Shown: piece after piece, positions 2,094 to 21,940 of the stretch | How positions within the stretch are numbered: position 1 is the first letter of the stretch | Layout: each line of letters begins with the position of its first letter | Assembly (NCBI GenBank): GCA_028565635.1 | Contig: JAOXYB010094049.1 | Span: forward strand, 1 to 21,954 | From: Phoronis ovalis | Lineage: Eukaryota; Phoronida; Phoronidae | DNA: 21,954 nucleotides | Reading direction: 5' to 3' | Translations under genes and position numbers: made by a program | Notes under the pieces: model-generated | Told to the model about the DNA's origin: nothing | Seen by the model: the letters and a program-made list of their open reading frames with translations, nothing else | Databases searched by the model: none

Positions 2094-2297
2094 TATTTGA
2101 TTGCATGGAACAAGAAAAAGCTTCTGGGGCAATTATATCTTCAGTTACTGGTGATCCGCGGTCTTTGGGCTCCGTGGTATCTTACCGATGTTTCCCAGGG
2201 TACTTGCCCGCGAGCGGATCACGAAACATCACGTGTGTAGGGAAACAAAATGGAGAAGGTTATATTAAATGGAATGGAGACAGGTTAGCATGTACAA
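2094..2297 (+). CDS. RTK exon 1: CCP/sushi domain
   Basis: A T-rich tract ending TTGTCAG precedes 2094 and GTAAGT follows 2297; the exon is phase 1-1 (68 codons). The four CCP cysteines appear in order as FDC, YRC, ITC and LAC, with the usual aromatic/glycine FPGY after Cys2 and a KWNGDRLAC ending. CCP modules bind protein or complement-like ligands in extracellular proteins. A start at ATG 2039 would also read in frame into this exon through a hydrophobic run, so a first-exon interpretation cannot be fully excluded. Confidence 0.85.
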
Positions 2298-5200
2298 GTA
2301 AGTTAATTCAGCAGAACTGTCAACTGTTTGTCTAACAAATCTCCATGAAATATTTTAATACATAATTTGCTCTGACGACGATGTACTATGACGAATTAAT
2401 ATTCAAAAAAACGTTCAGAAGAGGTGGCTGCTGTCAAGTCCGTGCTTTATAAAGTCAACTATATTATGTTCGTGCGAATATATTTGATATATTTACGCCT
2501 GAATTGACGTTCTCATATGTTCACGTCTAACGCTTTAAAATCTCAGTCATTTATCGTTTATGTGGAAGAACTGATTCACGATTCAACAGCTAATTTCAGC
2601 TTCTTTCACCGCCTAAACAGACGCAAAAGATGTACATTCCCCTCTAACAAGGGAGGTACAGACACAGGTAGAAAGAGTAAGCCATGCATTAGTGTGCAGT
2701 ATTACAAATTACAATTACAATAATATAACATGATCTTAGATAATGTAGCTTTGGCCAAGCCTGCAACACAATCATCTACCTATGTCGGCAAGTCATATGA
2801 AGGTTTAGCATCGTTGGCAGTAGACGGTAATGCAGATCCTTTACTGCACCGTGGACGCTCGTGCTCTCATACTAAATTGGAGGTTAATCCCTGGTGGAGA
2901 GCAGACCTAAATGAAGTGTATGCGGTCTTTGAAGTTACCATTACAAATAGAAAAGTAGAAACATGTATTTTTTTCTTTATACCACAGCAAGCAGATAGCA
3001 GAGTTAGGGTGGGCATTATTGTTTATTTAACCAAGCTGGTTTGTACAATATAACATCAAGGGCGATAGGTCTATCATATAAAGAATTATAGTTTATATAT
3101 TTTTTATCTCAGATTTCTATTCACATGTAAATAGCCTTTTCGGAGATTTTTATTTCATTTACCATCTTAATATCTGAATTGCCTCGTTTGCTGAATTTAC
3201 TGTTTCATTAAAAATTCTAAAATAAAATAATTGCTAAAAGGTATTCAACAAAAATAGTCCAACTAAATTAAAATGTGATCTCACATAATATATATATATA
3301 CACGTGTACTGAATATGTTAGTTGTAATTTATCTTACATATATAGGCGTCCCAGATGATCGACTGCACGATGTGGACATTCGCATGAGTAATCTTTCTTT
3401 ACCCAGCATTGAGGATACAGAATACCAGAGATGTAACTATAGAGAAGATATATTTCCTGACGGGCTGTCTGAAGATATTATATGTGACAATATTGTGTAT
3501 GGGCAATATGTCTTTGTAAACATACGCAGTAGATCAGACCAATATGATTTTCTCACGTTATGTGAGGTTGTAATAAAAGGGTGCGTAGGTGAGTGTTTAT
3601 TAAGAATATTTTTAATCCGTATGAGAACAAGGCGAATTTACCGAAAAATATATGCACAATTACTATGTTCACTTTCAGCAATCTATCTTCGTTTAACTGT
3701 CCAAACTGTATATCAAACGTAAATCAGCCACAATGTATTCTGCGCTCAAGGTTGTAGCTGGTACATTGTACACCAGTCTGAATAAATCCATCCGTTAGTG
3801 TTCCGTACCTTCTCAACTAACGTCTGGGCTTAACTATGTTCATTTTTTGTTTATTGTCTCTAAAAGCAGAAGAACGATAATCCCATTAATTGTACACCAG
3901 TCTGAATAAGTCAGGGCTTAACCATATTCAATTTTTATTTATATTTCTATATAAAATGTCACGAAAGTCTTGACACCAATCAAATTGGAGCTTCCAATAA
4001 TAGGTATAACAGGGACTAAGCGGCTAGGGGGGTCGATCACACACATGCTGTAAATGTAACTGAAATTGACTATGGTTAAGCCCAGATGTTAGTTGAGGGG
4101 GTAGGGAACACTAACGGATGGAAACTGGTATATTACAGACTGTATTATTTTTTTTTAGCAAAATGCGACTGGTTACTTGATTTTAATAACAACACATTAG
4201 TCAACGAAAGGTTGAGGTATTTATAGATATATAAAGTTTTTTGATCAAATGCAACACTTTTAGAAAATGTATTTACCTGTACAGTAACGCCACGGAAGAC
4301 AAATGTCACTTTATGTTAGTATGTTCGCTGATTAACTGCGCTGCGTTTTATTCCTGAATATATTACAGATAAACTTTTACCTTTTGGTGTAAATGAGCAT
4401 GTATTGAAAGACATGTTAGCAATGCCTGGTTTAGTTTTAACCAGCGAAATACTAGAAAACTACTATCGTGTTTCAGTTTGACCATCGGTGAACAAAGTAC
4501 AGCACGGATAGGGGAAGATGATGCCAAAGGTCTTGTTCTTTTTATGTCTGGTAACGCCTCTGACATAGTGCATATATTGGGACCTCCTAGTCTAACCGAA
4601 TGGCGAAGTTTTACTTTGACGTTATCTATTTTTCCTGATAAGCTGGTAAGTCCCAAAGTACCTCTCCCTGGGCTAAGCATGTTACAGTCTGGAAAAATCC
4701 AACCGTTATTGTTCCGTACCATATCAACCGACGTTTAGGGTCAACCATAGCTCACATTTTTCTTTATTATCTTGAAAATCAGAAGAACGATTATCCCTTT
4801 ATTTTTATGTAAAGTCTTCGTGAAAGCCTAGGAGCCAATCAAATTGCAACTTATAATAACATGTATAACAATGGACTAAGCGGGTAGCTAGCACAATCGA
4901 TCAATCACACATTCTGTCCTGTCAAACTTTATCTATAGGACGCTATGCAAAAATCAAGCGATACCTATTCACAATTATATTCAGACTGAGCATGTTTGTG
5001 CTCCTACAACAGCTGTAGTGGAATCTTTAATACCTCAATAGCTGACAAATTAGCTATCTTCTTCAAGACACATCTGGAACAATTTGTATTTCGTGCTACT
5101 CCCTATATACGCCCGATCACCTATCATTTTTATCGCATAAAACACGCATACACTGTCGATTGTAGGCCTACTTACTTCTATGACACCTTACAACATTTTA

Positions 5201-8200
5201 TGCTGTTTGTAATGTCTTCATATGTGCAATCATATAAAAAGTATGATCTGCCATTATGACTCCAAATGTTGCCTGCCATAAATAATAAAATGTGATAAAA
5301 AACTGAAACTGGTCGTTTTTACTAGCGAATATTACATAATCAGTTCCAAACACAAAGGGCTCATACTGTATTATTCCCCCTCCACTCACCTCACAACACA
5401 AACATGTTTTCTATATAATCAAATCCACATATTTTGTTCCAAATTAGTTAAAGGAAAGTTAGCTTTTATACTGTTTATAACCAGTCCTGAGATAATACAA
5501 AATACGTTCAGCCGAGTAAACATTGTCCGCTTCCTTCCTGCCGATCTGACGGTAAGTTCGGTTTGTGGTATATCGAATATTGTTAAAGAACTTCTTTTAA
5601 AGCCTCATTTTGATCGATTAATAAGGCGCTGTATATGCCACATCTAGAATATAAAAGGCAGATCCATGGGTCTGTTATCAGAGAACGAGATAGCAGTCAC
5701 ACGCCGCATGCTCTGTAAAAGCACCCATTAGTATTGTTGTATTTCTCATATATTTTATTTAGACATGTGATGCACTTTTTAGACAGCTGTTTAAACAAAT
5801 CATCACTATCGTTTACTGCTTTGTATTATTCCTATATGGCTTACTTAAGACTGCAGATATCGTTCACTTATTAAGAGACCTGCAGTTGATATCGCTTAAA
5901 GCTCTACGTAAATCCCCTAGCCTGTTAATAATTCAATAAGGAAAAATCAGCCTTTACGCGATGGGGCTTTAAAAACCCACTGTTCTCCAGACACCGGCCT
6001 ATTGTTCACCCCTCATTCAGATGAAGATACCTCTGTGTTGCCATGATCATGTTTATAACTATTTTAGACAATTAGCCATTCAGCCCCCATAAATCTATTT
6101 AAACGTGCTATAAATGCTATGTGAAACGGTCAACTATAAATCGGAATATTCTGATAGCTACGTAGTAGTAACCAAAAATTCTCTCAGTTTTGCAATAGTT
6201 TTGTTATCTCCCGCAACCAGTTTTGTTAATGAAAAAAAAACAAACTTACATCACACTTCAGTTAATCTGTTATTTCTATGTAATGTCTTAGATTCATCTT
6301 AATGCTAATTACAAACATAAAACAATGATAACTAATAATTAATGGATGCAAAATACGACCGATCACTTTGGCAAAGACAAAGACACCTCTTGAAGTTTAC
6401 ATATCGTAAAACTACTAAACTTCTTTTGACTGCAGGCACCATAGAGATTGAACTAAATCGGTAACGACATACCATGTCAATGGTATTAAAAGCTGGCTTG
6501 ACTTTAATCATAGTAAGATTTTTATGCGAACAGGGGACACGACAAGCTATAATTGGCGATTTCACCAATCCACCGATGTTCTTGTTTCGTCTGGAAGCAA
6601 ATGGAACACTCTGCCTAAATCTTAGGAAAAATTGGTATAATGCAGACGGTGAGGGTGACGACGCTGACGCTGCACAAGTTTTAGTTGATGTTTGTGGAGG
6701 AGAGTTGGAAGAGAAAACGTGGTGAGTCTTAGAAAAGTAGAAGCTGTAAGTCTCAAACACGCTTGCATAGGTGACCTTCCTTTGTCGTTTTTAAACAGAT
6801 AATTTGATTTCAATGTGTACTCTTTGTGATTCAAGACACTTATTCCATTTTTTAACTTGTTTATGTCTATACAAAAATAAATTCACTTTTTTATTAATTA
6901 CAAGTGTAGGTGATTTGGGAATTTCGATAACAGGTTGTATATAATAAATATAATTAATATAATTATGTGCTAACAGAAACGCAAGAAACATGAACATATA
7001 TATACAGGACTTCACCACAATTCCAACTAGGATGACAAAACTCTGCTTCACCATCTACCATCTTCTTCAGATTCTAAACACCGCCATTACAACACCAACA
7101 TAGCGTGGCCAATGGTATCAGCATCGAGCACAGTGAACGCAATACAAAAAAAAACGGTTCTGGAGAAAGACACTCTTTTACCATACTAACTAGACCTAGT
7201 AACATTTATCAACTGACAAAAGTACTTTCAATATCGTATAACACTTTTTAATGAAATAGCACATTCTTGTAAGATTAACCACGTTGTAAGATCAATCTCA
7301 CTCCTAGTTCACCGATTTGCCAAAATTACACAAAGACACAATACATACTATACGAAAAAATACAAAAATGCGACTATACCTGGAGATACTGTCTAGAATA
7401 GCAATGACACCCAGCATACGTATAAGATAGCACAAACGGACCGAGCAATGTTGTCTGTTAACTAGATAAATATCAATGTTCTTTCCAACTAACAAAATAT
7501 AGGTGTGTCTATAATAAGCTAAGTTACTATATTTATAACTAGCCCTGCGTGACATTTCCCAAGTGTTCAAATCGTTACCACGAAACTGAAATCGTTGGAA
7601 AAGTCCCTTGCGTTATAACCTATTCTTGGTCGGAAAATGGCACAGTTAAATTTTCTACAACCTGATTGACTAACTCAGGAAATTTACCCTGATGTCTAGC
7701 GCCTGCTAGCGGATACGTTCGGTCAGACTTATAAATAACGCAACATAGCACATGTGCTTTTATCAAATACAAACGTATATTGGGATTGGCAGCTTACTTT
7801 TTATTAAGATAATAATGAGCTTTTTAATTCAGAAATGATTAGTCGTGCGCAGTAGCTGTCATCATCATACCCCTTTGGTAAAAATCATGCCCACGTCAAA
7901 AACCTTTCCTGCATATGTCACGTGACTTCTGCTAATTAGTGGTTCACTTTAGTATATCCCACAATCCCATGTCACTCTGAAATTGGTAGGTTATTTTAAC
8001 GTTTTAGAGGAAAGACATTGAAACATTTATATACATGTAATACCGAACAGGATTCCAAATTTCATTTTCGAAAAATTCGTTTTTTAGGAAAGTTCTTGTT
8101 TCACCTTCGGAATCGGTCCCCATGGACGAGTGCATTTGGATCACACTGTTCATTTGAATGTGACCTTTAATTATCTGCTTAGACATTGACTAGGGATAAT

Positions 8201-11200
8201 TGGTTTTCTACGGATAATATTCGCAGCAATCGGCTATAGGAGGTTTATAATGAACATTTGCAAAAAATAGAAACTTTTCTAAAAAGAAGGATATTATTTT
8301 TTTTTTAAACTTGAAGGTAGTATATCACTTACTGTGATAACAATTATTATTCACTTTTTTTCATTGCAACGTTAAAAGTATCATACGAATTGCTTGGTGA
8401 CACGTGGAATATACTATCGAAAACTTGAAAAATGCTTTTAGGAGACAAAATACCCTGTTAATATTAATTTTAACAAAGCCATGAATAACCATTTAAAATT
8501 GATTAACTCCTTTCGCATTAACCATTTTTACGACACCGAAATAAAGTATTATTCGTAATCATTAGCGTTTTCAAGACCTTAAATGACAATTGTTTGACTT
8601 GTGAAAAATCAAATTCTGTTGGTATCCAAACCTGTAATTTCTTCACTGACAGGCATGAAATTGGATTTTCCTATGAATATAAACATGGCAGAGCTACTGT
8701 ATGGCAGAATAATAACATAAGGGCACAGAAAATGACTACGTCCGTCAATAAGAAACTCCAACATAACCAGCATGTACGCTGGGAGCTAGGATTCAATGCA
8801 AAGGACAACAATGAAAACTTTAACGGCCGTTTTGGAAAGTTGTACATCAAAAAAGGTTGAGCTTTGAACTTTATTTATGTAGTAATAATAAAGTGACACA
8901 GGAACGTATGTGCAATATTACAAATAACTAGATGTAGAAACATTAAATACAGGCCTACCTAATCAGCGTGGACTCGAACCGTCAACCCGTACTCTCGCAT
9001 CTGTTTCGAGTCGCAGGAATTCCGTGCGAAACCGGGAAAAAATGTTCGATAGTAGGAAACAAGCGCGTGAGAGTGGATAGACGGTTCGAGTCCACGCTGG
9101 CTAGGTAGGCCTGAAATATTTGTAAGTAAATTAAAATAAATGACTTTCGTTTCAGCGGCTTTAATTCAAAACATTGTCCCACTCAAATCAATCCAATGCG
9201 TTACCATGATATCTACACATGTATATATCCCCTGTTTTAATTTCTAAGTCTGGTTATTGTATTACTTTTAATACTTGAAATCTCTTTCAAAGTCTGGAGT
9301 ACATGATGCGACATAATTTTATTTTCACTATAAATATTAAGCAGACTATGCTGCATTGTAATGTTAGAAAGTATTAAACATAATCTTAAATACGAATTAA
9401 ACCTATCGAGCGAAGTAACAAAAGAATATCAATCGCTAACCTGAATCTGTTAAAAAAATGCTTTGAAGTTCTGGGACTTCAGTATACAAATTACTTCACT
9501 ATACCATAACAACCCAAGTACCTAAAAATGTTTTTACAACTATTGCTAATTGCTGTTCCTGTTTCTGTTACCTGTGGTGAGACTATGAGGATAAGTGTCA
9601 CCAACCACAAAACCACGGCGTAAACAGTAGTAGCAACACACGAGCAGTGTAGGAGGAGACTGCTTAGATGTTATTCAAGATAAGTGAGAATCAAATTAGC
9701 ATGTTTTTCAATTTGAAAAACGACAAATATGTATAATATATATAAAGTGGCAGAAAACTTTTAAAACTATTTTTATTGTGGCAGATGATCCAGATGAAAT
9801 CTCAGTTATGAATACAGCACGATCAACAACTGATGGTAAGCGTAACTAACAACTAAACTGTCATTGTATACCTTTATGGCTGGCTATACAAGTTGATACC
9901 CGTATTGAGATAAACAGACATTTTGAAAGCTTACCTTACTGAAATTACTGAAATCACTGTTAACTGAAATGGGATACTGGAAAATATAATTTATATACTG
10001 TCAGTATATTCATTTCATATTGTCCCATCTATGCATTTTAACTCAGAGACAGTAAACTATTCGGGGATGTATCCGCAAGCTGCGGCTTGCAAAGACGGGC
10101 AAGAGAAATGTCTAGTATTATCACCAGAACGTCTATAGCATAAAGTAGTAGCTGCTGTCGGGATAAACGTATTCTGAAATAACACAGAACAACATTTGTA
10201 GTATATTGTAGGTCTTGTAATTAAAAAGTTTTAAGACTATCTTATATTGTTTTTCCTTGTAGCACGTTATACAGATAAACAAACAGTTGCTGGTTCTTCA
10301 ACAGTTCAGTCAGAGACTAATGGCAAGTAGAATATAAAAAATCATAATTTATGAGTATATTTATGCAGAATTTTTTGTAGAATTTTGAAATGTATTGTTG
10401 CTGGAACTGTATCTCAATTCCTTTTTGCTAACACGAAATTATTATACAACGTCACACAGAATATATAGGCCTAAAAACATAAATAATTTACAATAAAAAA
10501 TATTCGGATATATACAGGAGCCTAATATACAGGAGCCTAACATACAGGAGCCTAATATACAGGAGCCTAATATACAGGAGCCTAATATATACAATATTTA
10601 AAAGTTTGTTTATACGTCAATTCTACTAGTCAATTTTTAGAACACCCCTAAAGAACGGTAACATCCGACGTAGAGGTGTTTAATTTAAGTATAGGTCCGG
10701 GTTAATAGTTGGACACAACTATTTCAAAGTAAATCAAAGCGAATGTTTGAAAGTAAAAGTAAAACTCAATCCTAAGTTTTTAAAAGTTATAAATCGCTCG
10801 CCATTAAAATTGGGTATTTTACAGATATTATATTTTGTTCGCACTATAATTAATCTGGCGAAATGTGCATATTTCTATTTTTAGATATTGTCATATATGT
10901 AGTGGCCAGTGCAGCATCAGCGATGGTAGTATTACTAATTTTTGTCATCATTGCCGCATTTTGGCGTCGATGTCACCAAGCCTCGCAAAATGCAGAAGCA
11001 CTCGACAACAGTCGTAACCGTGAAGTTTTATCAAGAAGTAACCATAACAGTATGGCACAGAAATGTTCTGAGGTTTTCCGTAAGTGACTTCAAGAATACG
11101 TTTATCGAACGTCAGTTGTAAGTTTTCATTATTTTGGATTAACATTGAAATTAGGAACTTCATTCTTTTAGACGAATATAAGTCACAAAATATCGGAATG

Positions 11201-14200
11201 ATGAGTGATTTATCATGTTTGGGCATACTTTCTATTTAATTCTCCTTCCGATGAATTGCTGTTGAAGCCAACAGTTTCCTCAGCTTGGTACATATTGGTC
11301 CAAATTTTGCAAAAACAAATTCAGAAGCAAACAATTCTAATATATAGCAATCTGTAGAACTTGTTGCCTGTCAATTGTTCTTTAAAATGATATCTCTTCA
11401 AATCAGGGTTTCGCTGCATCGTCGCTTATCACGGCAATTCTGTGTTGATGACTCATAGCATAAGAGCTGTTATCGCTTAGAGGACTATGCAAACCTGCTA
11501 AGATAGAATGATTTCAACACAGCCTCCCTACATACCTTTACTTGTTTGAATTCGTGCTAGCTCGCTTGCTCTTGTTATTCATCAACAATCCATCATGTTT
11601 TATTTTCGAAATTTACCATTGCAGCAATACCGGCAACTCATTTACATGGCGCTTCCGCAAGTGGACATTTTAAAATTAGCAATGTTTTACGTGACATACT
11701 GAGTAAAACAGTACAGATGAGGTTATGTCCCCTGCTGAGAGATGCCAATCCACTACAGTTAAAAGAGAAATTAGGAAAAGGTATATAGTTCTGTAGGAAC
11801 CGAGTTCCACTTCATGCAAACATATTCCTGTACTGAGTGATATAAATATATAAATGTACACTAACAAATACACAGTTGTATTTGAAATGCATAGTTACTA
11901 ATTAATAATCAACCAGGTGCCAGGGAAGGGACACGTAAATAATGTTCGGTTAAAATTAAAGTGACATAGAGGAATCTTTTAAGTTCACGCAGACTTTAAT
12001 TTATTTCTGTTTCCAACGAAGTACCACCCGGGGGGTATGGCGGCAATTTGTTTGTAACGACGCCTTTTATAATAAGGGCATTAGATATGCGGGAGAGGCA
12101 TTATCGCATTACCTTGGACCTTTGGAAACTAATTTAATCTACATCATTATAATTTCATCGCAAAGCTTTCGCTTTTTTCAAAATTTGAACCAGCTGTAGT
12201 TTAAGGTATAATGCGGCAATGCCTTTCCTGCATAACTAATGTTCTCAATTCAAATTCTAAAATGCGACGTCACAAACTAACAACTATAATACCGCACTTC
12301 ATTACAAACAGTAATAATGTAGACATTTCGTAGACCCGTGCTACATGCTAATAAGTTTAATCTGCGTATGAATAATTAGTAAACGTTAATTTTTAGAAGA
12401 ATGTAAGTCACAAAATATACCGTCCACAATTAAGCTAAGATATTTGACCCTTACAAAAGATGATCCACATGAATAACTTACGTATTTCCGAGTACTATAA
12501 ATGTTCATCGATATTTCAAACTAAAGCAGATATATTGTATCCGGACTTTTGTTCAAATATTAAACGGAACACATCAAGTTTCCGTATCGAACCAGGCTTC
12601 ACGTTTCATTTGACTTTTCCATCTCATATATTAAGGACACATATTTTATTAGATCGAACCACCATGAGAATCAGTGTATGTATGTCACTCCAAAGATGTC
12701 TTTGCTAGCATGTAAACTATATAACTTAGTTTGCACATTAACTATTTTAGGTGCATTTGCTTGTGTTTTTCGAGGTGTATACACATTTCAAAATGGTACA
12801 GGAAACAAGGTGAAAAAGACAGTTGCTGTTAAAACTTTGAAAGGTAGTAAACACTTATAAGTTTTTTCCCGAGGTTTCTTTATCGGGAGGGGTCGCGTAG
12901 GGTTTCGGGATCCGCGCCACTGTAATCGTTATTAATTTGATCTAAATCGAAAAGTCTAAGCGGTGTATGTTTTATAAATAAATATACTCTAGTTTCCTCC
13001 AACGCCATAAGAGTCAGTTATTTTTATCTATGTACCACTGATATTTTAGAGGGCGACAGTAGCAGTGATAATATTGTGCAGCTTATTGAAGAAGCTTTGA
13101 CAATGGCGGAGTTTAAGCATCAACACATTATGCCTGTTATTGGTGTGTGCATTTGTATGGATACCAATATTCCGATGATTCTTATGCCTTTTATGAAACA
13201 CGGAGATCTTCATTCATTTTTGAAGAAATTTCGAAGCAATCAAGACTTCATGTCACAGGTAGGTTGATATAATCGATATATTATGATTGTATTAAAGTAT
13301 ATTTTCCAACAGTTTAGTAACTTGTTGAATTCTGATTTTATAAGAGTTTCTTCAATAATGATTCCGTAAACTGTACATAATATAATGGCTTACTCCAGCC
13401 ACTAAATCAGTAAACAGGATGTCACCACTTGAGCAGATCATTTCTGAAGAGAAAATGTGATTCATTATGAGGGGGTAGGGGTCCCCCATGGTACAATGCT
13501 TGCACTTAAAATTGGCAAAATGGTCTCCAAAAAAAATCCTCGCGGTAAGTTAAAGAACAAAAAAGTGGTCACCAAAAGGAAACGCTCGCTGCTCGCGAAC
13601 CCCCCCCCCCCCATAGCCCTATATGTTCTGCCTACTACCATGGCTGCAATTGGCTATCTAACTTAGGCATTTAAACTGAGACAGGCCTAACATTAACTGC
13701 TAGAAGAATTTTGGACCAATTTATGCAGTGTAAAATGTGACCTGTGGTTTTGCACAACTGTGAGTATATGCATTTGTTTATACAATATATGTATGTTTAT
13801 AGATGTTTGTATATATTAAACACGTCCCTATGCTGCAGCGTATCTTGTCATTGCAGGTCCCAAGTAATTTGAAACTTTTGGAGTTTGGCCAGCAAATTGC
13901 TAAAGGCATGGAATACTTGGAAAGCGCGACGTTTGTGCACAGAGATCTCGCAACAAGGAATTGCATGTAAACTATTTCAATCTAAAACATTTTTTAGCAG
14001 AACAAAAGGCGTGTGTTATATTTTCGTCACATAAAATTTAACCATGAAACCATTCTCACCTGATTACATGCCTGCAAGTCATATGTATATTTTAAAAAAC
14101 TCATAATAGTGTCTATTGAGCGATCCGGGTTATTGGAAATAATCATAACAGGTTATAGATGAATACCATGTATTTTGTAAGTGTCGACAGTTGACTAATA

Positions 14201-16469
14201 CAAGAAATACCTTTTCCCCTAATATTATATTCAGCAAGGAAAAGTTTATACAACTTATGGAATCAGCTGATGTGTGATAACTACAATCCTCCGCTGATTA
14301 TGTTATCATATAAGCAAGTTGGTTACTTAAAGCAGCTTCACCATGAACTGTAGTTGTTATATGTACATAATGTATTATTGTTAATATGTTCACTCAGTTT
14401 TTATGTATTTCGGTTATGTAACTCGTTGACGTTTAAAAATGTACATGTGCATTGTAAAACATGGGCCTCAAGTTTAATAAATAACAAAAAATCATATTCA
14501 TATCCAACATACGAGAGTCCATCTAAAGTTTTTTTTAATTATAATTGAATGCATTTCCGATGTTCTGTCTCTCAAACGTTCTCATTTACCACATGACAAA
14601 AGTTAACATTAAGTTCTTTATTCTCAACAGGATTAATGACCAGTTACTGGTGAAGGTGGCAGACTTTGGTTTGGCAAGAGACATCTACAGTGATAACTTT
14701 TATAAACAAGATAAAGTAACATTACTACCTGTTAAATGGATGGCAATAGAATCTCTGAAGTATAGATTATTTACTACACAGAGTGATGTGGTAAGGGAAT
14801 GGTAGTCATTTAATACATTCATACAACAGCACGTGCTTCTATATTTTACTTTTTGTTAACTACAGCCTAGGATAACTTAAACATATTCTTAATATTTTGC
14901 CCCCGCTAGATTAAACGTCATATGTAAACGAGCAGTGTGATCTAGTCGTTATTGTCCATGTGGGGCGATTTCGAATGCGTATTGTGGGCAAGAGAGCATT
15001 ATAACGGGATTTGCGAAACAAGGATTTCCTGAAAAACGGTACATTCGTTAATTATGAAATGAATCCTGTTAGACGTTATATCTCTAACGCTGATAAAGAA
15101 GTTTCCGTTTTCGACAAAAACGCTAAAAACAATGCACGAATTTCGGGGTGAAATGAGAGAGTGTGATATACTATATAAACGTATATGTAGGTGGGGATTG
15201 TGTCACGCGACTTAATATATATGTATTACTTTCAGTGGGCGTATGGTGTCACTCTTTGGGAGATCTTGACTCTTGCAACAACACCTTATCCGGACGTAAA
15301 TATGACCGACATATTGGATTATTTAGAATACGGCGGTAGATTGAAACAACCTGATGAATGCCCAAACGAAATGTAAGCATCAGACAGGAAACGTTATAAA
15401 TAACTTGGATACAAAATTTGCTTAGGCTTCTTGTTTAATGTGTGAAACTTATGGGGCCGATGTCTTATCTGTCTACATAGTCTGAATTTAAATTAACATA
15501 AGAAATTAGTTTTATGCTTAACTATGTGTTAAGGCAAGTGATAAACTTAGGATAGTTGAGACATAAGAAATCCTGGGGGGGGGCAGTCAATATGAAAGTG
15601 GGTACGCATGTTCTAACAAAATTTCGCGTGAAAGGATATGTTTTTCGAACCGCCAGAGCCTAACGCGCGTTACGCGCTTAGGGTCTGTTTTTGGCAAAAA
15701 TCACAAAAAGGGGTGTTTTTTGGAGTTGTGTCACTTCGTTAGAGGTGTTTTTTTCCCAAAACTCACTTCCTTCAGGGTGTATTTTTTCAAAAAACTCACT
15801 TCCTTAGGGGTGTATTTTTTGCAGAATTTCACTTCGTTAGGGGCTCTTTTGAAAAGCCATGTTGGAACATGGGTACCCACTTTCAGATTGACTGCCCCCC
15901 TTGGGTAACAAATCCACCCTTCACGTATAGAAGGTAATTTATAAATCAAAATTAAATTCTTTGCATGAAAAGACCATTAAGTGAAGTCAGTAGATCCCAA
16001 GATAGATTTTGTGAAAGTCACGATATCATACTAAGTATATAGACTGTGATAAAATGTCAGAAAATTAAATTCAAGTAAGCTATAGTCTTACTGTTAGTCC
16101 CTATATTAATATATGGTCTCATTATTTTTGTAGAAATTAAATTTTGTACAAAGTAACAATTAAATCTGCGTAAGAAAACAAGTTTTATCAGATACCTTGG
16201 TGTTATGCAGGTGCTTTCTATCATGAATCGATTTATCCTGCTTGGGAGATTAATATATACGTACTGCGTTTAAACGTTTTTCGTTGTTAATTATTCTTTT
16301 CTCTTGCAGCTATGCCTTGCTGTTGAGTTGTTGGCAGAAAAGTTCTGCAGACCGACCAAGCTTCAAGCAAATTGTAGAGAATCTTGATAAATATCTTAAC
16401 TCCAAAATTGAGTATCTTGATCTTACATCACGTGACAATGATTCTGATTCTGAACATTACTACACATAA
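2094..16469 (+). CDS. Lectin-type receptor tyrosine kinase (CCP - F-lectin - LamG - TM - MET/TAM-like kinase), 17 exons, 5' partial
   Basis: Exons: 2094-2297, 2740-2964, 3346-3588, 4159-4210, 4477-4645, 6534-6721, 8653-8855, 9785-9835, 10263-10322, 10885-11079, 11625-11780, 12751-12843, 13050-13258, 13857-13966, 14631-14790, 15236-15372, 16310-16469. Phases match at all 16 junctions, giving 870 complete codons and a TAA stop. Approximate residues of the visible product: CCP 1-68, F-type lectin 69-224, LamG-like jellyroll 225-428, Ser/Thr-rich stalk 429-465, TM exon 466-530, juxtamembrane 531-582, kinase about 575-850, short tail. The kinase keeps VAVK lysine, [11 protein letters not shown] and WMAIESL, so catalysis is expected. 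By family knowledge it would sit in the plasma membrane, bind a glycan or protein ligand outside and phosphorylate tyrosines inside. Ligand and biological role are inference. No signal-peptide exon is certain; the gene probably continues left of the window. Exon boundaries were placed by eye from splice consensus, phase and domain continuity. Confidence 0.92.
2740..2964 (+). CDS. RTK exon 2: F-type lectin, N-terminal half
   Basis: Phase 1-1 exon (acceptor ATCTTAG, donor CAT/GTATTT). It reads [17 protein letters not shown], then [23 protein letters not shown] and FEVTITNRK, the hallmark order of fucolectin/eel-agglutinin F-type lectins. The SHT histidine (2868-2870) and the NR arginine (2949-2951) are the usual sugar-contacting positions and are 26 residues apart, as in the family motif. 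The donor at 2965 was chosen over an earlier GT at 2955 because only the former gives the phase needed by the next exon. Confidence 0.9.
3346..3588 (+). CDS. RTK exon 3: F-type lectin, C-terminal half
   Basis: Phase 1-1 exon between TATATAG and GTGAGT. Translation starts [15 protein letters not shown] and ends [13 protein letters not shown], matching the second half of F-lectin domains (RL..VDIR, cysteine pair C-N-Y...IICDN, then the closing LCEV strand). Joined to exon 2 it completes one domain of about 156 residues, the normal size. Confidence 0.9.
3774..4142. mobile_element. MITE-like element, copy A, with about 65-bp terminal inverted repeats
   Basis: The left arm (3774-3838, starting CAGTCTGAATAAATCCATCC) is the near reverse complement of the right arm (4070-4142, ending ACGGATGG...CAGACTG). 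The shared core is CCATCCGTTAGTGTTCC...CTCAACTAAC.TCTGGGCTTAA. No coding capacity. TA flanks the right end, suggesting Tc1/mariner-type ends, but the left flank is ambiguous. The element ends 16 bases before RTK exon 4, so that intron's branch region is transposon-derived. Confidence 0.75.
3889..3930. repeat. Internal duplication of the MITE left end
   Basis: TTGTACACCAGTCTGAATAA at 3889-3909 repeats the left end seen at 3765-3785, then jumps to the GGGCTTAAC part of the arm. It looks like a nested or tandemly duplicated, deleted terminus inside copy A. Confidence 0.6.
4159..4210 (+). CDS. RTK exon 4: first strand of LamG-like domain
   Basis: A 52-bp exon with acceptor TTTTTTTTAG and donor AAAG/GTTGAG, phase 1 in and phase 2 out. 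It encodes [17 protein letters not shown], resembling the first strand (L-D-F-x-N-x-T-L) that opens LamG/concanavalin-like jellyrolls. Phase 2 matches only the acceptor at 4476, which argues against the tempting AG at 4368. The acceptor lies 16 bases after the end of a MITE-like repeat. Confidence 0.72.
4477..4645 (+). CDS. RTK exon 5: LamG-like domain
   Basis: Acceptor GTGTTTCAG, donor CTG/GTAAGT, phase 2 in and phase 0 out. It reads [20 protein letters not shown], then [10 protein letters not shown] and [16 protein letters not shown], the pattern of LamG_3/concanavalin-like domains where a sFTlslWv.P strand follows the surface loop. A second copy of the MITE-like repeat begins about 40 bases after the donor. 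Confidence 0.85.
4685..4920. mobile_element. MITE-like element, copy B (3' truncated relative of copy A)
   Basis: It starts TTA/CAGTCTGGAAAAATCC and follows copy A in order: AACCGTTATTGTTCCGTACC, AGAAGAACGATTATCCC, GTGAAAGCCTAGGAGCCAA, GGACTAAGCGGGTAGC, and CAATCACACAT. The right inverted arm present in copy A is absent. It begins about 40 bases after the donor of RTK exon 5. Confidence 0.7.
5454..5551 (+). other. Candidate alternative or relic LamG-like exon
   Basis: An open frame ends at a strong donor (CTGACG/GTAAGT) in phase 0, with possible acceptor AGs at 5446-5447, 5452-5453 and 5461-5462, all phase 1. It reads [18 protein letters not shown] then [12 protein letters not shown]. The pattern resembles exon 5 ([14 protein letters not shown] ... 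FPDKL/GTAAGT) only loosely. Phase 1-in, 0-out would let it replace exons 4+5 between exon 3 and exon 6. The acceptor is pyrimidine-poor, so it may be a decayed exon or chance. Confidence 0.3.
5620..5690. repeat. Dispersed repeat, copy 1
   Basis: AATAAGGCGCTGTATATGCC through GGGTCTGTTATCAG is repeated at 18491-18560 with roughly 80 percent identity by eye. Similarity stops on both sides, so this is a short conserved block of an interspersed element of unknown type. Confidence 0.7.
6534..6721 (+). CDS. RTK exon 6: LamG-like domain
   Basis: Acceptor TGCGAACAG, donor ACGTG/GTGAGT, phase 0 in and phase 2 out. It reads [12 protein letters not shown], then [15 protein letters not shown] and [13 protein letters not shown]. 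The [18 protein letters not shown] and CGG...TW pieces are core LamG-like strands. The open frame continues upstream to about 6465, but only the AG at 6533 gives the phase 0 start required by exon 5. The final tryptophan codon is split TG/G across the next intron. Confidence 0.88.
6722..8652 (+). other. RTK intron between exons 6 and 7
   Basis: About 1.9 kb of AT-rich intron. I see no further exon, RNA gene or structured repeat in it; the short open frames have random composition. Confidence 0.5.
8653..8855 (+). CDS. RTK exon 7: end of LamG-like domain
   Basis: Acceptor CTTCACTGACAG, donor AAAG/GTTGAG, phase 2 in and phase 1 out. The first base completes the split Trp codon, giving [20 protein letters not shown], the counterpart of the W-H-x-V-x-x-x-Y-D strand pair of LamG domains. 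It ends [14 protein letters not shown], the usual closing strand (F.G.i..l.i). The downstream linker is lysine-rich. Confidence 0.88.
8856..9784 (+). other. RTK intron between exons 7 and 8
   Basis: Holds the foldback element at 8950-9113. Nothing else recognisable. Confidence 0.5.
8950..9113. mobile_element. 164-bp foldback/MITE-like element with 5-bp target duplication and B-box-like arms
   Basis: The ends CAGGCCTACCTA...TAGGTAGGCCTG are inverted repeats of about 50 bp. The core CAGCGTGGACTCGAACCGTC is a perfect 20-base match to the reverse complement at the other end. AAATA flanks both sides (8945-8949 and 9114-9118), as for a target site duplication. Each arm contains GGTTCGAGTCC (opposite strands), the consensus of a tRNA T-loop/Pol III B box, though no complete tRNA cloverleaf or A box is seen. 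Confidence 0.8.
9785..9835 (+). CDS. RTK exon 8: extracellular stalk mini-exon
   Basis: A 51-bp exon with acceptor TTTTATTGTGGCAG and donor GATG/GTAAGC, symmetric phase 1-1. It encodes [16 protein letters not shown], with no domain, only acidic and Ser/Thr residues. Its symmetric phase and position between LamG and TM suggest a skippable membrane-proximal spacer, possibly O-glycosylated. Confidence 0.75.
10263..10322 (+). CDS. RTK exon 9: extracellular stalk mini-exon with GC donor
   Basis: A 60-bp exon after TTTTTCCTTGTAG, phase 1-1, encoding [20 protein letters not shown], a Thr/Ser-rich low-complexity stalk. The downstream donor is ATG/GCAAGT, so this would be a GC-AG intron; the other intronic bases fit the donor consensus. 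No GT donor nearby keeps the phase. Confidence 0.7.
10323..10884 (+). other. RTK intron between exons 9 and 10 (GC-AG)
   Basis: Begins GCAAGT and ends TTCTATTTTTAG. It contains the 15-bp minisatellite. No other structure noted. Confidence 0.55.
10511..10585. repeat. Five tandem copies of a 15-bp unit
   Basis: The unit TATACAGGAGCCTAA occurs five times without gaps; only the third copy has a change (T to C at its first base). It lies in the intron between stalk exon 9 and the TM exon. Confidence 0.95.
10885..11079 (+). CDS. RTK exon 10: transmembrane helix and start of cytoplasmic domain
   Basis: Acceptor TTCTATTTTTAG, donor TTCC/GTAAGT, phase 1-1. It starts with a helix of about 25 hydrophobic residues ([20 protein letters not shown] continuing IIAAF), followed by the positive stop-transfer WRRCHQ, which puts the C-terminal side in the cytoplasm. 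The rest ([20 protein letters not shown]) is a polar juxtamembrane segment without an obvious docking motif. Confidence 0.93.
11080..11624 (+). other. RTK intron between exons 10 and 11
   Basis: Contains a 30-base segment at 11166-11195 (TTTTAGACGAATATAAGTCAC...) that recurs in altered form at 12391-12420. No exon recognised. Confidence 0.5.
11625..11780 (+). CDS. RTK exon 11: juxtamembrane to start of glycine loop
   Basis: Acceptor TTTACCATTGCAG, donor AAAAG/GTATAT, phase 1-1. It encodes [20 protein letters not shown], then [17 protein letters not shown]. The last residues begin the kinase glycine loop and are completed by exon 12. The preceding helix-rich segment occupies the place of the L-x-x-L-L-x-D juxtamembrane region of TAM kinases. 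Confidence 0.85.
11781..12750 (+). other. RTK intron between exons 11 and 12
   Basis: Holds the foldback element at about 12051-12277 and the second copy of the 30-base AG...GTAAGT segment at 12391-12420. Otherwise featureless. Confidence 0.5.
12051..12277. mobile_element. Foldback element with long diverged inverted repeats
   Basis: The left arm at 12051-12115 (TTTGTAACGACGCC ... GGGCATTAGATATGCGGGAG ... GCATTACCTT) matches the reverse complement of the right arm at 12203-12277 at roughly 75-80 percent. Weak similarity may extend the arms to about 12020 and 12310. A spacer of about 85 bases separates them. No coding capacity; it lies in the intron between exons 11 and 12. Confidence 0.65.
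12751..12843 (+). CDS. RTK exon 12: glycine loop and VAVK strand
   Basis: Acceptor TTAACTATTTTAG, donor AAAG/GTAGTA, phase 1-1. Joined with exon 11 it gives [19 protein letters not shown] and then [10 protein letters not shown]. The ATP-anchoring lysine of VAVK is present. The third glycine of the G-x-G-x-x-G loop is alanine here (GKGAFA). Confidence 0.92.
13050..13258 (+). CDS. RTK exon 13: alpha-C helix, hinge, alpha-D
   Basis: Acceptor GATATTTTAG, donor TCACAG/GTAGGT, phase 1 in and phase 0 out. It reads [20 protein letters not shown], then GVCI and [19 protein letters not shown]. The alpha-C glutamate is available in IEEAL, and the [11 protein letters not shown] hinge is typical of the TAM/MET group. 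The residue before PFM, the gatekeeper position, is methionine. Confidence 0.94.
13259..13856 (+). other. RTK intron between exons 13 and 14
   Basis: Contains a run of 13 C at 13600-13612 and, upstream, two imperfect purine-rich repeats around 13521-13545 (GGTCTCCAAAAAAAATCCTC) and 13567-13592 (GGTCACCAAAAGGAAACGCTC). The homopolymer and GC-rich CGCTCGCTGCTCGCGAAC border suggest an old repeat fragment, but no terminal inverted repeat was found. Confidence 0.45.
13857..13966 (+). CDS. RTK exon 14: alpha-E and catalytic loop
   Basis: Acceptor GTCATTGCAG, donor GCAT/GTAAAC, phase 0 in and phase 2 out. It reads [20 protein letters not shown], then [10 protein letters not shown]. Catalytic Asp and Asn are present; the loop is HRDLATRN rather than the common HRDLAARN of receptor tyrosine kinases. 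Confidence 0.95.
13967..14630 (+). other. RTK intron between exons 14 and 15
   Basis: AT-rich intron with nothing recognisable. Confidence 0.5.
14631..14790 (+). CDS. RTK exon 15: DFG and activation loop
   Basis: Acceptor TTTATTCTCAACAG, donor GATGTG/GTAAGG, phase 2 in and phase 0 out. It encodes [20 protein letters not shown], then [19 protein letters not shown] and FTTQSDV. The Mg-binding DFG is intact. The activation loop carries Y-x-x-x-F-Y instead of Y-x-x-x-Y-Y. AIESL in the APE position is shared with TAM (IAIESL) and MET (MALESL) kinases. Confidence 0.95.
14791..15235 (+). other. RTK intron between exons 15 and 16
   Basis: Nothing recognisable beyond splice sites. Confidence 0.5.
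15236..15372 (+). CDS. RTK exon 16: kinase C-lobe (alpha-F, alpha-G)
   Basis: Acceptor TTACTTTCAG, donor GAAAT/GTAAGC, phase 0 in and phase 2 out. It reads [20 protein letters not shown], then [27 protein letters not shown] is the alpha-F start; the TPYPDV and RLKQP-x-x-C pieces are shared with MET/TAM kinases. Confidence 0.95.
15578..15900. mobile_element. 323-bp MITE-like element with GGGGGGCAGTC termini
   Basis: The left end GGGGGGCAGTCAATATGAAA followed by GTGGGTACGCATGTTCTAACA is mirrored by the reverse complement of the right end at 15860-15900 (GGGGGGCAGTCAATCTGAAA then GTGGGTACCCATGTTCCAACA), about 90 percent identity over about 41 bases. The interior holds the palindrome TAACGCGCGTTA and a 33-bp tandem array. 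Flanks CTGGG and TTGGG might be a diverged 5-bp target duplication. It lies in the intron between exons 16 and 17. Confidence 0.85.
15706..15862. repeat. 32-33-bp tandem repeat inside the GGGGGGCAGTC element
   Basis: Units begin CACTTCGTTAGAGGTG, CACTTCCTTCAGGGTG, CACTTCCTTAGGGGTG and CACTTCGTTAGGGGCT at 15732, 15764, 15797 and 15830, each followed by a T-rich segment; a partial unit precedes them. Confidence 0.9.
16310..16469 (+). CDS. RTK exon 17: end of kinase domain and C-terminal tail, stop
   Basis: Acceptor CTTTTCTCTTGCAG, phase 2 in. It reads [20 protein letters not shown], then [14 protein letters not shown] and an acidic [11 protein letters not shown] before TAA at 16467-16469. CW-x(6)-RPSF closes the kinase fold. 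EYLDL resembles the FGFR C-terminal tyrosine site that binds PLC-gamma SH2. A 93-base open frame in another register begins exactly at the stop and may be the former rest of the tail. Confidence 0.95.
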
Positions 16470-19194: not shown

Positions 19195-19297
19195 ATAGGA
19201 TGAACTAGTCGAAAACTACTCTTCACTCATTTCCATAATGGCTCGGATTGGTGGGCGGAAAATGAGTGAAGAGTAGTTTTCGACTAGTTCATCCTAT
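19195..19297. repeat. Near-perfect 103-bp foldback palindrome
   Basis: The left arm 19195-19234 (ATAGGATGAACTAGTCGAAA, then ACTACTCTTCACTCATTTCC) is matched by its reverse complement at 19257-19297, with one extra A as the only difference over about 40 bases; the spacer is 22 bases. It directly abuts the microsatellite. Such perfect arms suggest a recent foldback element or transposon end. Confidence 0.93.
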
Positions 19298-20205: not shown

Positions 20206-20438
20206 TTAGGTATTATCACTTTTAACAAAAGTGCTTGTTTCATATTGACAAACGAAGTGGAACTTTTGATTACAAGGATAATCTTTCCACATATAGTTGT
20301 AATCAGAATCCATGGCAACACAATCTCTGTCATTATTTACCAGACGAGTTGGACAATCACGTGACCACTCTACGTTGGTTCCCAGATGGCTACCATCGGA
20401 ATATAAGAATGAGCCCTCTTGATACATGTCATCCAAAC
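20206..20438 (-). CDS. CTL gene exon D: C-type lectin domain, C-terminal half, stop
   Basis: Acceptor TTTTTTATTGACAG, phase 1 in, ends in TAA. It reads LDDMYQEGSFLYSDGSH, then VEWSRDCPTRLVNNDRDCVA and YPCNQKFHFVCQYE. The conserved Cys pattern (DC..., PC..., FVC) is complete. Where EPN/QPD and WND would sit, the sequence has no EPN and reads MWKD, so canonical Ca2+/sugar ligands are missing or altered. Confidence 0.93.
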
Positions 20439-21940
20439 CTGTCAATAAAAAAATGTTTTAATATTCGATGATTATCTGTGAAGTAATTGTATTTGAGAGT
20501 CGGATGTTTGTTTTGGATATAATTCTGTTGCTGATTACATTACGTAATAGTTGATTTACCTGTAAAATTTTGTGCAACAACAACTATTTCTGTAAGCCAG
20601 TGAATGCAATAGAATTTACGCATTAATATTCCATTATCCTCTTTCAAGCTATAGACATAACATCTTTTCAATTTGAAAACACTCGTTATGATCATACCGG
20701 AGCATCTAACAAACATTAGATAAGTAACATAGTTCTAATTCAACCAAGAGATAATTTATTATCGTCTATTTTTTTGCAAAGAATAATGATTTGCATACGT
20801 TAATGATCACCTATCTCTAAATACTGTAATTATTTATAACTGTGTTACCTATCCAGTTGCTCGTGTTCACTCCTGCGTGTAATGTGCTCGTGAGAAACTT
20901 GTGTGTTTCTTTATCGTTTACTATAGCCAGCAAACCATGATGTGTGGAACAGTAAGCATCGGCTTCATAGTAAGAAGTTGTTGAGTTTGAAAATTCAAAA
21001 CATTTATCTTTGAATAAAACTGTGCCAGGTGCACAAGGTTCTAACTCTGTAATACAACAGTCAAATAATGATGTTTTTATTTTGAGGTTAATAATATACA
21101 TTTTTGCGTTCATTATGGAGTTGTAACTGGTCGAATCAGATTGAAAAATTATAATAGTGGGCAAGGCAGCAGGACTAGGACTAATGAAATAGACGGCGCA
21201 TGTCTAACAGATACATTAAAATGTGTCATAATGGATGGATGGATGAACGGATGGATATGTACAGTCCAGGAAACCCAGGTGCAATAGCTTCTGGTATTGC
21301 AAATATTTGCAATCATACAATAGTAGATTTGTTATAATAAATTACTTTTATCTTACTTTTGCATTCATGTGATGAAGAAACTCCAATGTGTTCAGTCTGA
21401 TTTCCACTAGGACAAGATAAACATTTAGATTTTCCTGCTAGGCTTTGGTAACTATCAAGCGGACACAATTTGCATTGACCATTTGTAAGATCGTGGTGAG
21501 ATCCAGGTGCACATTCATCTGCAAAACGTAAAACCAACATGTTAACAAGACCAAATTCCACTGAGAATACCAGATCTTTTTCATATGGCAGGTAACTAGC
21601 CCAATTACAAAAACAATGTAAACGTATAACTATCCCAAAGATCTGTTTCAGAGTCACTGCAACATTGCCTCTTACAATTGCATTACACCAGTATTTGTAT
21701 CTTTGTCTCTGCTATACTATAATAAATCATCTTTTATGAGTTTATATTACATGTTCACAAAACGCGGGTACAGTTTTTTAAAACTTACAGCATTCGTCTC
21801 CACGCATAACTAGGTATTCTCCGCAGATTGGCAATGGGTTGCTAGCGGTAATTAATTTCACGTCCACTGTTACAGTGTGAGTCTGGTTCATTGTCACATT
21901 TAAAGCAGACGCATGCCTCTTTATGTTCTTAATGACTTCA
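20206..21940 (-). CDS. GCC2/GCC3 cysteine-rich + C-type lectin domain protein, 4 visible exons, 5' partial
   Basis: Exons in transcription order: 21940-21789, 21518-21357, 21046-20849, 20438-20206. Phases agree at every junction and give 247 complete codons and a TAA stop. Approximate residues: unassigned segment 1-36, GCC2/GCC3-type (SVEP1/ephrin-receptor-like) cysteine-rich module 37-105, C-type lectin domain 106-240, and a short tail ending VKSDNT. No TM segment is visible, and the CTLD is C-terminal, so this part would be extracellular, either secreted or attached through the missing N-terminal region. The CTLD lacks EPN/QPD, so calcium-dependent sugar binding is doubtful. It converges on the RTK gene. 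The first exon is bounded by CCATAG just inside the window edge, so further exons lie outside. Confidence 0.88.
20439..20848 (-). other. Intron splitting the C-type lectin domain
   Basis: Phase 1 intron directly after WIG of the CTLD. No internal features recognised. Confidence 0.5.
20849..21046 (-). CDS. CTL gene exon C: C-type lectin domain, N-terminal half
   Basis: Acceptor TTGTATTACAG, donor GATAG/GTAACA, phase 1-1. It reads CAPGTVLFKDKCFEFSNSTT, then ADAYCSTHHGLLAIVNDKET and SNWIG. The extra N-terminal Cys pair marks a long-form CTLD; AxxYC...LAxV...E...F is the usual alpha1/alpha2 pattern, and WIG is completed as WIGLDD by the next exon. Confidence 0.93.
21047..21356 (-). other. Intron of the C-type lectin gene
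   Basis: Contains a short ATGG/GGAT microsatellite at about 21231-21256; nothing else seen. Confidence 0.5.
21357..21518 (-). CDS. CTL gene exon B: GCC2/GCC3 (ephrin-receptor-like) module
   Basis: Acceptor TACGTTTTGCAG, donor AAAA/GTAAGA, phase 1-1 (54 codons). It reads ECAPGSHHDLTNGQCKLCPL, then DSYQSLAGKSKCLSCPSG and HECK. The C-x-x-C-P...YQ...G...C-x-x-CP spacing is that of GCC2/GCC3 repeats found in SVEP1-like proteins and Eph receptors. Confidence 0.88.
21789..21940 (-). CDS. CTL gene exon A: unassigned segment into cysteine-rich module
   Basis: On the minus strand TTTTTTCCATAG precedes 21940 and GTAAGT follows 21789; phase 2 in and 1 out. It reads NVTMNQTHTVTVDVKLITAS then ICGEYLVMRGDEC. 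The first 36 residues, with two potential N-glycosylation sites, are not recognised. The last part opens the CxxC-type repeat continued by the next exon. Confidence 0.7.

Follow-up and report, generated by a model that had tools for sequence, protein, structure and literature searches.

A candidate lectin-headed receptor tyrosine kinase in Phoronis ovalis and its paralogs with different putative heads in the same genome

As a rule, each family of receptor kinases is recognized by a single, invariant ectodomain. A locus in Phoronis ovalis raises the question of whether a sugar-binding-type head and a tyrosine kinase can be parts of one receptor and, if so, how such a receptor was assembled and what it might recognize. 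A preliminary description had proposed that a CCP (sushi) module, an F-type lectin and a LamG jellyroll are connected through one transmembrane (TM) helix to an apparently active kinase of MET/TAM character. Here we examine this proposal over the window, which is the whole 21,954-nucleotide contig (C4631), and in searches of the same genome that covered 77 Mb in 4805 contigs, to which the C-numbers below refer. The reading that we favor, with a probability of about 0.55, is that the window gene and its family encode single-pass receptor tyrosine kinases, that the window gene is laid out as CCP, F-type lectin, LamG-like region, stalk, TM helix and kinase, and that phase-1 heads have been shuffled before a shared TM-kinase cassette.

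Exon chain and extracellular modules

Seventeen exons on the forward strand, from 2094 to 16469, join in one frame to give 870 residues followed by a stop codon, with no internal stops (Table 1). Phase is consistent at all 16 junctions; the idealized chance figure for this agreement, 2e-8, is an overstatement since exon ends were picked with phase in view. The 16 donors comprise 15 GT and one GC (after 10322), and two of the GT donors (after 4210 and 8855) have the weak form GTTGAG. The sushi, lectin, LamG-like and stalk segments all start and finish in phase 1, and upstream of the kinase domain lies a single TM helix, read by eye in exon 10. Both the single open exon chain and the lone TM helix of the preliminary description are borne out by this model. 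A further exon at 5459-5551, which belonged to an 18-exon model and is still present in the version of the protein used for the Pfam run, was removed on the grounds of its poor acceptor and of the corresponding part of C3503, which lacks this exon and instead has a donor and an acceptor of phase 0 that lie 361 bases apart (taking the better donor), the next junction being phase 2, as in the window.

Table 1 Exons of the candidate receptor gene and a competing upstream exon in the window
Feature	Position	Strand	Basis
Exon 1 in window: Sushi/CCP module, phase 1-1	2094..2297	+	Pfam Sushi; C2992; splice sites identical in C2052
Exon 2: F-type lectin, first half	2740..2964	+	PDB, Pfam; C2052 paralog 81% by residue, splice sites identical
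Exon 3: F-type lectin, second half, ends phase 1	3346..3588	+	PDB matches
Exon 4: start of LamG-like module, weak donor GTTGAG	4159..4210	+	Phase-consistent; no paralog exon seen
Exon 5: LamG-like module	4477..4645	+	C3503 junction phase 0 at matching place
Exon 6: LamG-like module	6534..6721	+	C3503 exon 50%, junction phases 0 and 2 shared
Exon 7: LamG-like, C-terminal strands, weak donor GTTGAG	8653..8855	+	C3503 exon 40%
Signal-peptide-like ATG exon, phase-1 donor (rival feature)	9528..9576	+	Scan of intron between LamG-like and stalk exons
Exon 8: short stalk exon, phase 1-1	9785..9835	+	Exon chain
Exon 9: Ser/Thr-rich stalk, GC-AG intron next	10263..10322	+	Exon chain
Exon 10: TM helix and juxtamembrane start, phase 1 in	10885..11079	+	Exon chain, paralogs
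Exon 11: juxtamembrane, ending inside glycine loop	11625..11780	+	Exon chain, paralogs
Exon 12: kinase N-lobe, GKGAFACV and VAVK lysine	12751..12843	+	Pfam, motif check
Exon 13: kinase alpha-C, hinge, PFMKHGDLHSFL	13050..13258	+	PDB, Pfam, paralogs
Exon 14: kinase catalytic loop HRDLATRN	13857..13966	+	Pfam, paralogs, motif check
Exon 15: DFG and activation loop	14631..14790	+	Pfam, paralogs, motif check
Exon 16: kinase C-lobe	15236..15372	+	Pfam, paralogs
Exon 17: kinase end, tail YLDL / DSDSEHYYT, stop	16310..16469	+	Pfam; similar tail in C858, C3653

Exon 1 has no start codon and opens in phase 1. An N-terminal start at an ATG at 2039, which is readable through the acceptor tract, was considered and rejected: its frame is not kept in C2052, the closest paralog, and the N-terminus of the long form therefore lies beyond the contig, leaving the gene 5'-incomplete. 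The paralog carries the sushi and first lectin exons with the same splice sites before its contig ends, and its identity to the window is 90% across a 1.0 kb alignment leading up to the sushi exon and 85% past that exon (84-85% by blastn in longer pieces). Upstream of its sushi exon C2052 has Ig and PAN exons whose phase options permit 1-1 modules, and to judge from this arrangement Ig or PAN modules may be encoded in the N-terminal part that the window gene lacks here.

The modules of the head are recognized with different degrees of confidence. The sushi module of the window protein scores 19.7 bits with Pfam (1e-3), slightly below the cut-off of 20.7, and a related exon in C2992, about 53% identical to that of the window, reaches 38 bits (2e-9), which supports the earlier CCP call. 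Compared with PDB sequences, the lectin part resembles FBP32 (6e-34) and eel agglutinin (AAA; 4e-13), and residues 94-198 match the galactose-binding-like Pfam model F5_F8_type_C_2 at 1e-10; by homology to FBP32, identification as an F-type lectin, as first proposed, is firm. The fucose-contacting His and both Arg residues align with eel agglutinin, as do the AVDGN (calcium-site) and LTLCEV segments. Roles for residues of the pocket are described in part in a review of F-type lectins (PMC5712786), which gives the motif as HX24RXDX4(R/K). The acidic residue of this motif, two positions after the first Arg, is replaced by Val in the window lectin, which reads RKV rather than RXD.

F-type lectin exons are also found on C2667, C1797, C4222, C2941, C3758 and C1434, with further examples on C3189, C121, C1280, C3963, C1730 and C3763. 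No kinase match was obtained in the stretches searched around the F-type lectins of the first six of these contigs, so the module is in wide use outside the receptor.

The third module of the head is reached by a longer path. None of three HMM libraries (Pfam, NCBIfam and PHROGs) has a model that matches the 206 residues after the lectin, and a search against PDB sequences returned no direct match. Within the genome the region matches C3503 twice (1.9e-12 and 2.8e-9), C2163 (0.0026) and, weakly, C3417 (0.015), and the latter two match Pfam Laminin_G_3 at 1e-7 and 3e-16, respectively. The C3503 relative matches no LamG model itself, and it backs two of the junction phases in this part of the gene. 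A four-row profile of the region finds 4qvs, an S-layer-type protein, over most of its length (6.8e-6) as well as neurexin LamG domains; two of the four rows are true LamG sequences, so the profile is not independent support. Of the LamG jellyroll initially proposed, what survives is homology through the C2163 and C3417 intermediates in place of any direct HMM or PDB match, and we regard a LamG-like jellyroll after the lectin as probable.

Several other features of the window and the assembly were observed. At 20207-21711 the reverse strand carries another gene, in which a C-type lectin domain (8e-20, pieced together by eye from two parts) is accompanied by an Ephrin_rec_like module (1e-11); further exons of this gene probably lie past the contig end. 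A perfect inverted repeat at 19195-19297, with two 38-base arms separated by 27 bases, adjoins a long TG/TCTA microsatellite seen by eye. Introns of the receptor gene contain a short minisatellite of about five near-identical 15-base units (10518-10590) and dispersed repeats at 3773-4122 and 4685-4975 with copies, partly inverted, on C2578, C2208, C2941 and C2052; the minisatellite and several poly-G/C runs elsewhere in the window were noted by eye. The COI gene on C1114 reads by the invertebrate mitochondrial code (AGR as Ser, ATA as Met, AAA as Lys and TGA as Trp), a usage that points to an animal of protostome type.

The kinase and its relatives with other putative heads

The window protein matches a Pfam kinase model at 2e-89, and with the catalytic Lys, HRD and DFG all present the kinase is catalytically complete by sequence. 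These motifs are intact in the window gene and in all four paralogs long enough to be read, whose kinase is 63-68% identical to that of the window. Leaving aside a top PDB match labelled EGFR that sums two stretches, the nearest solved kinases are MER (3e-78), then AXL, MET and TYRO3. A tree of 17 rows groups the window gene with four paralogs, of which two are partial, in a single clade (99/98) that belongs neither to the TAM receptors (99/99) nor to the three MET-like rows (92/90). The three possible pairings are each compatible with the data (p-AU 0.409 for the family with TAM, 0.177 for the family with MET and 0.205 for TAM with MET), and a sister relationship of the family to TAM or to MET was neither adopted nor rejected. 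The family was likewise one clade (94/99) in a first tree of 24 rows, from which five with long branches or poor coverage, including an EGFR of the same genome, and two unnamed TAM-like rows were dropped. The MET/TAM character claimed for the kinase is therefore retained as regards its complete motifs and nearest relatives, and revised in that the kinase, while it belongs with TAM and MET, forms a clade of its own that is neither.

Does this kinase always carry the same head? Searches of the genome with the window protein and a paralog composite of the C-lobe located the closest kinase exons on five more contigs (C858, C3173, C2578, C3653 and C2208), and C345 is 57-61% identical over one kinase exon. 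All eight TM-kinase exons (10-17) have exon-sized matches in C858 and C3653, exons 10-15 have them in C3173 and C2578, whose contigs end after that, and C2208 matches exons 16-17 only. Wherever matches reach them, exon ends of the paralogs coincide with those of the window, and all five genes with a TM exon have a putative acceptor of phase 1 (AG|AT) immediately ahead of the TM codons.

On three of the four paralog contigs with a TM exon, modules of other kinds lie ahead of that exon in the same orientation, these heads being assigned by strand and upstream position rather than by an exon-by-exon chain to the TM exon. C858 has a WxxW module (1.7e-9) and three F5/8C modules, one by Pfam (3.4e-22) and two by repeated motifs and exon pattern. 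Upstream in C2578 are a kringle (1.9e-21), a PAN module (2e-4, 21.5 bits against a cut-off of 21.4), a second kringle (7e-18) and an F5/8C module (8.9e-30), with a further F5/8C by motif. C3173 has two exons of ApeC, the apextrin C-terminal domain (7.3e-7 and 2e-5, the second below cut-off; 8576-9274 in stretch L023 of that contig), a partial match that lies about 3 kb from the TM exon; at E <= 0.001 the scan of the 77 Mb assembly found ApeC nowhere else, so that its sole match precedes this kinase. The head of C3653 lies off its contig. As in the window, the three F5/8C modules of C858 and the kringle exon and first F5/8C of C2578 are of phase 1-1; the WxxW exon of C858 was called as starting in phase 0, and the partly chained ApeC exons of C3173 did not show the 1-1 phase. 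The most likely origin of this arrangement is diversification of a receptor family by exon shuffling of recognition modules ahead of a fixed TM-kinase cassette. These paralogs, like the missing 5' end of the window gene, go beyond what the preliminary description contained.

Kringle-PAN-kringle modules are building blocks of HGF-type ligands, and it is a separate observation that in C2578 they stand upstream of a MET/TAM-like receptor kinase.

The join between the head and the kinase

The part of the gene model that most needs scrutiny is the passage from the LamG-like region to the stalk. The donor after 8855 agrees with the consensus in 5 of 9 places; if it is left unused, translation runs into an in-frame TGA at 8858-8860. 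Behind this stop, at 8887, stands an AATAAA, a hexamer that occurs 31 times in the 21954 bases of the forward strand. When exons were sought that open with an ATG and a hydrophobic stretch and end in a donor of phase 1, one was found in the next intron; it reads MFLQLLLIAVPVSVTC, and its donor at 9576 fits the next stalk exon. By these criteria, which are crude, 20 loci read on both strands (345,928 bases) yield 46 such features, giving an expectation of 0.12 for the intron concerned. The weak donor, the stop codon behind it and the signal-like ATG make separate or alternative transcripts possible, and the ATG exon could provide the signal peptide of a short, headless form of the receptor.

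Taken to its conclusion, this evidence would describe two genes or transcripts, a secreted CCP-F-lectin-LamG protein ending at 8860 and a short-ectodomain kinase starting at 9528, or else one locus that makes both besides the long form. In keeping with such a division, the LamG-like relative in C3503 has neither a TM helix nor a kinase in the 9 kb read, and the lectins searched on six other contigs had no kinase beside them. Against it, every junction of the long form agrees in frame and phase, and the LamG module of C3503 ends with a GT at the codon position of the weak donor, which makes that donor plausible. Moreover, C858, C2578 and C3173 have extracellular modules upstream of the TM exon on the same strand, and some of the signal-like features counted in the scan are simply the pyrimidine tract of a known acceptor, as at 2022 and 2049 in the window and at 6007 in C858. 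We consider this division unlikely, if a serious alternative; from the shared frame and phase, the GT in C3503 and the paralog modules we infer one common mRNA for head and kinase, in keeping with the asserted link between lectin and kinase.

Possible roles and comparison with known systems

What might a receptor of this kind recognize? The sushi and lectin exons are diverging fast from C2052, with dN/dS over both exons of 0.68 (95% bootstrap 0.37-1.34), a value that does not prove positive selection. Four consecutive residues of the lectin have changed, a clustering that is borderline (1051 of 20000 shuffles), and by position they would correspond roughly to CDR1, described in PMC5712786 as the most variable loop among eel F-type lectin isoforms. 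A concentration of differences between duplicate lectin heads in one loop is what might be expected of a gamete or allorecognition receptor whose F-lectin heads were diversified for self/non-self or sperm-egg recognition, in the manner of oyster sperm bindin, named as a diverse fucose lectin in a title cited in that review. The ApeC and kringle heads of the paralogs do not suggest such a function, which seems quite improbable.

A better prospect, in our view possible without being probable, is a receptor for development or adhesion that has no immune role and senses glycans of the animal itself or of its matrix, much as the DDRs sense collagen. F5/8C, kringle and LamG modules are frequent in matrix and adhesion proteins, and the dN/dS value falls short of establishing positive selection. 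On the other hand, ApeC is best known from microbe or non-self recognition and the close duplicate C2052 suggests recent turnover. The F-type lectin, too, is best known from microbe or non-self recognition according to PMC5712786. A further reading is a combinatorial family of pattern-recognition receptors, in which one MET/TAM-like TM-kinase cassette is furnished with shuffled microbe- and glycan-binding heads (F-lectin/CCP/LamG, ApeC, F5/8C-kringle-PAN and WxxW); its members would make up an arm of animal immunity with germline-diversified lectin receptors that signal directly by tyrosine phosphorylation. We put this forward tentatively, as a rather unlikely extension of the head-shuffled receptor kinase family favored above.

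For that family we hypothesize the following. Phase-1 symmetrical recognition modules would have been placed by exon shuffling before a shared cassette of TM, juxtamembrane and kinase exons, giving in the window gene a protein in which one or more modules encoded upstream of the contig precede CCP, F-type lectin, LamG-like region, stalk, TM helix and kinase. Its head would bind a multivalent glycan through the His/Arg/Arg pocket of the lectin, or another ligand of the matrix or cell surface, and ligand binding would cluster the receptors. The kinase would then trans-phosphorylate activation-loop tyrosines, and the tail (YLDL, EHYYT) would recruit SH2 proteins. Clustering, trans-phosphorylation and SH2 recruitment are general behavior of receptor kinases; glycan binding, activation by clustering, the downstream pathway and any immune or other biological role are what we would predict for this receptor. 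One kinase lineage behind several unrelated heads at the same intron phase amounts to a snapshot of receptor evolution by exon shuffling and, should the ligands of the heads be microbial or self glycans, lectin recognition in an invertebrate would be coupled to direct tyrosine-kinase signaling.

The preliminary description knew of no characterized receptor with the CCP-F-lectin-LamG-kinase combination, and this still holds for the protein database and open-access literature searched. A whole-protein search of 5.8 billion proteins returned 26 matches, to the lectin part or to the kinase domain of unrelated proteins, with both parts present by listed Pfam domains in none, and among the best 120 of 4194 kinase matches none lists an F5/8C-type or lectin domain; a search with the juxtamembrane and N-lobe region returned 5 public proteins. 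Candidates in these protein searches were chosen by shared exact words, so absence from them is no proof. No paper on a receptor tyrosine kinase with an F-type lectin or ApeC was found in the open-access literature.

Among known receptors, the TAM group (TYRO3, AXL, MER) resembles the window gene in that MER is the closest solved kinase and in the PFMKHGDLH-type hinge segment, but TAM heads are built of Ig and FN3 modules, the window kinase lies outside their clade, and its catalytic loop reads HRDLATRN rather than HRDLAARN. MET and RON are similar in that MET comes next after MER and AXL among solved kinases and in the VADFGLARD and LPVKWMA segments, which are also present in a MET-like row from Batillaria, whereas MET heads consist of Sema-PSI-IPT and the window kinase falls outside the MET-like rows. 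By Pfam, the part of the ectodomain encoded in the window is unlike either of these heads, as the preliminary description had said; the absence of Ig applies to that part, and Ig exons are present upstream in C2052. The DDR layout, with F5/8C upstream of a kinase, is echoed by C858 and C2578, but their kinases are MET/TAM-like, C858 has three F5/8C modules and WxxW, and C2578 has kringles and PAN. As for the head, Drosophila CG9095 and furrowed and sea urchin SpCRL combine an F-type lectin with CCP modules, and the first two also have a predicted TM segment, according to PMC5712786; they differ in having a C-type lectin or other modules, no kinase is named for them there, and the word "kinase" occurs zero times in that review. 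Shuffling of ectodomains among receptor kinases over deep time is described in PMC8662651, to which the present family would add shuffling inside one genome on one kinase lineage.
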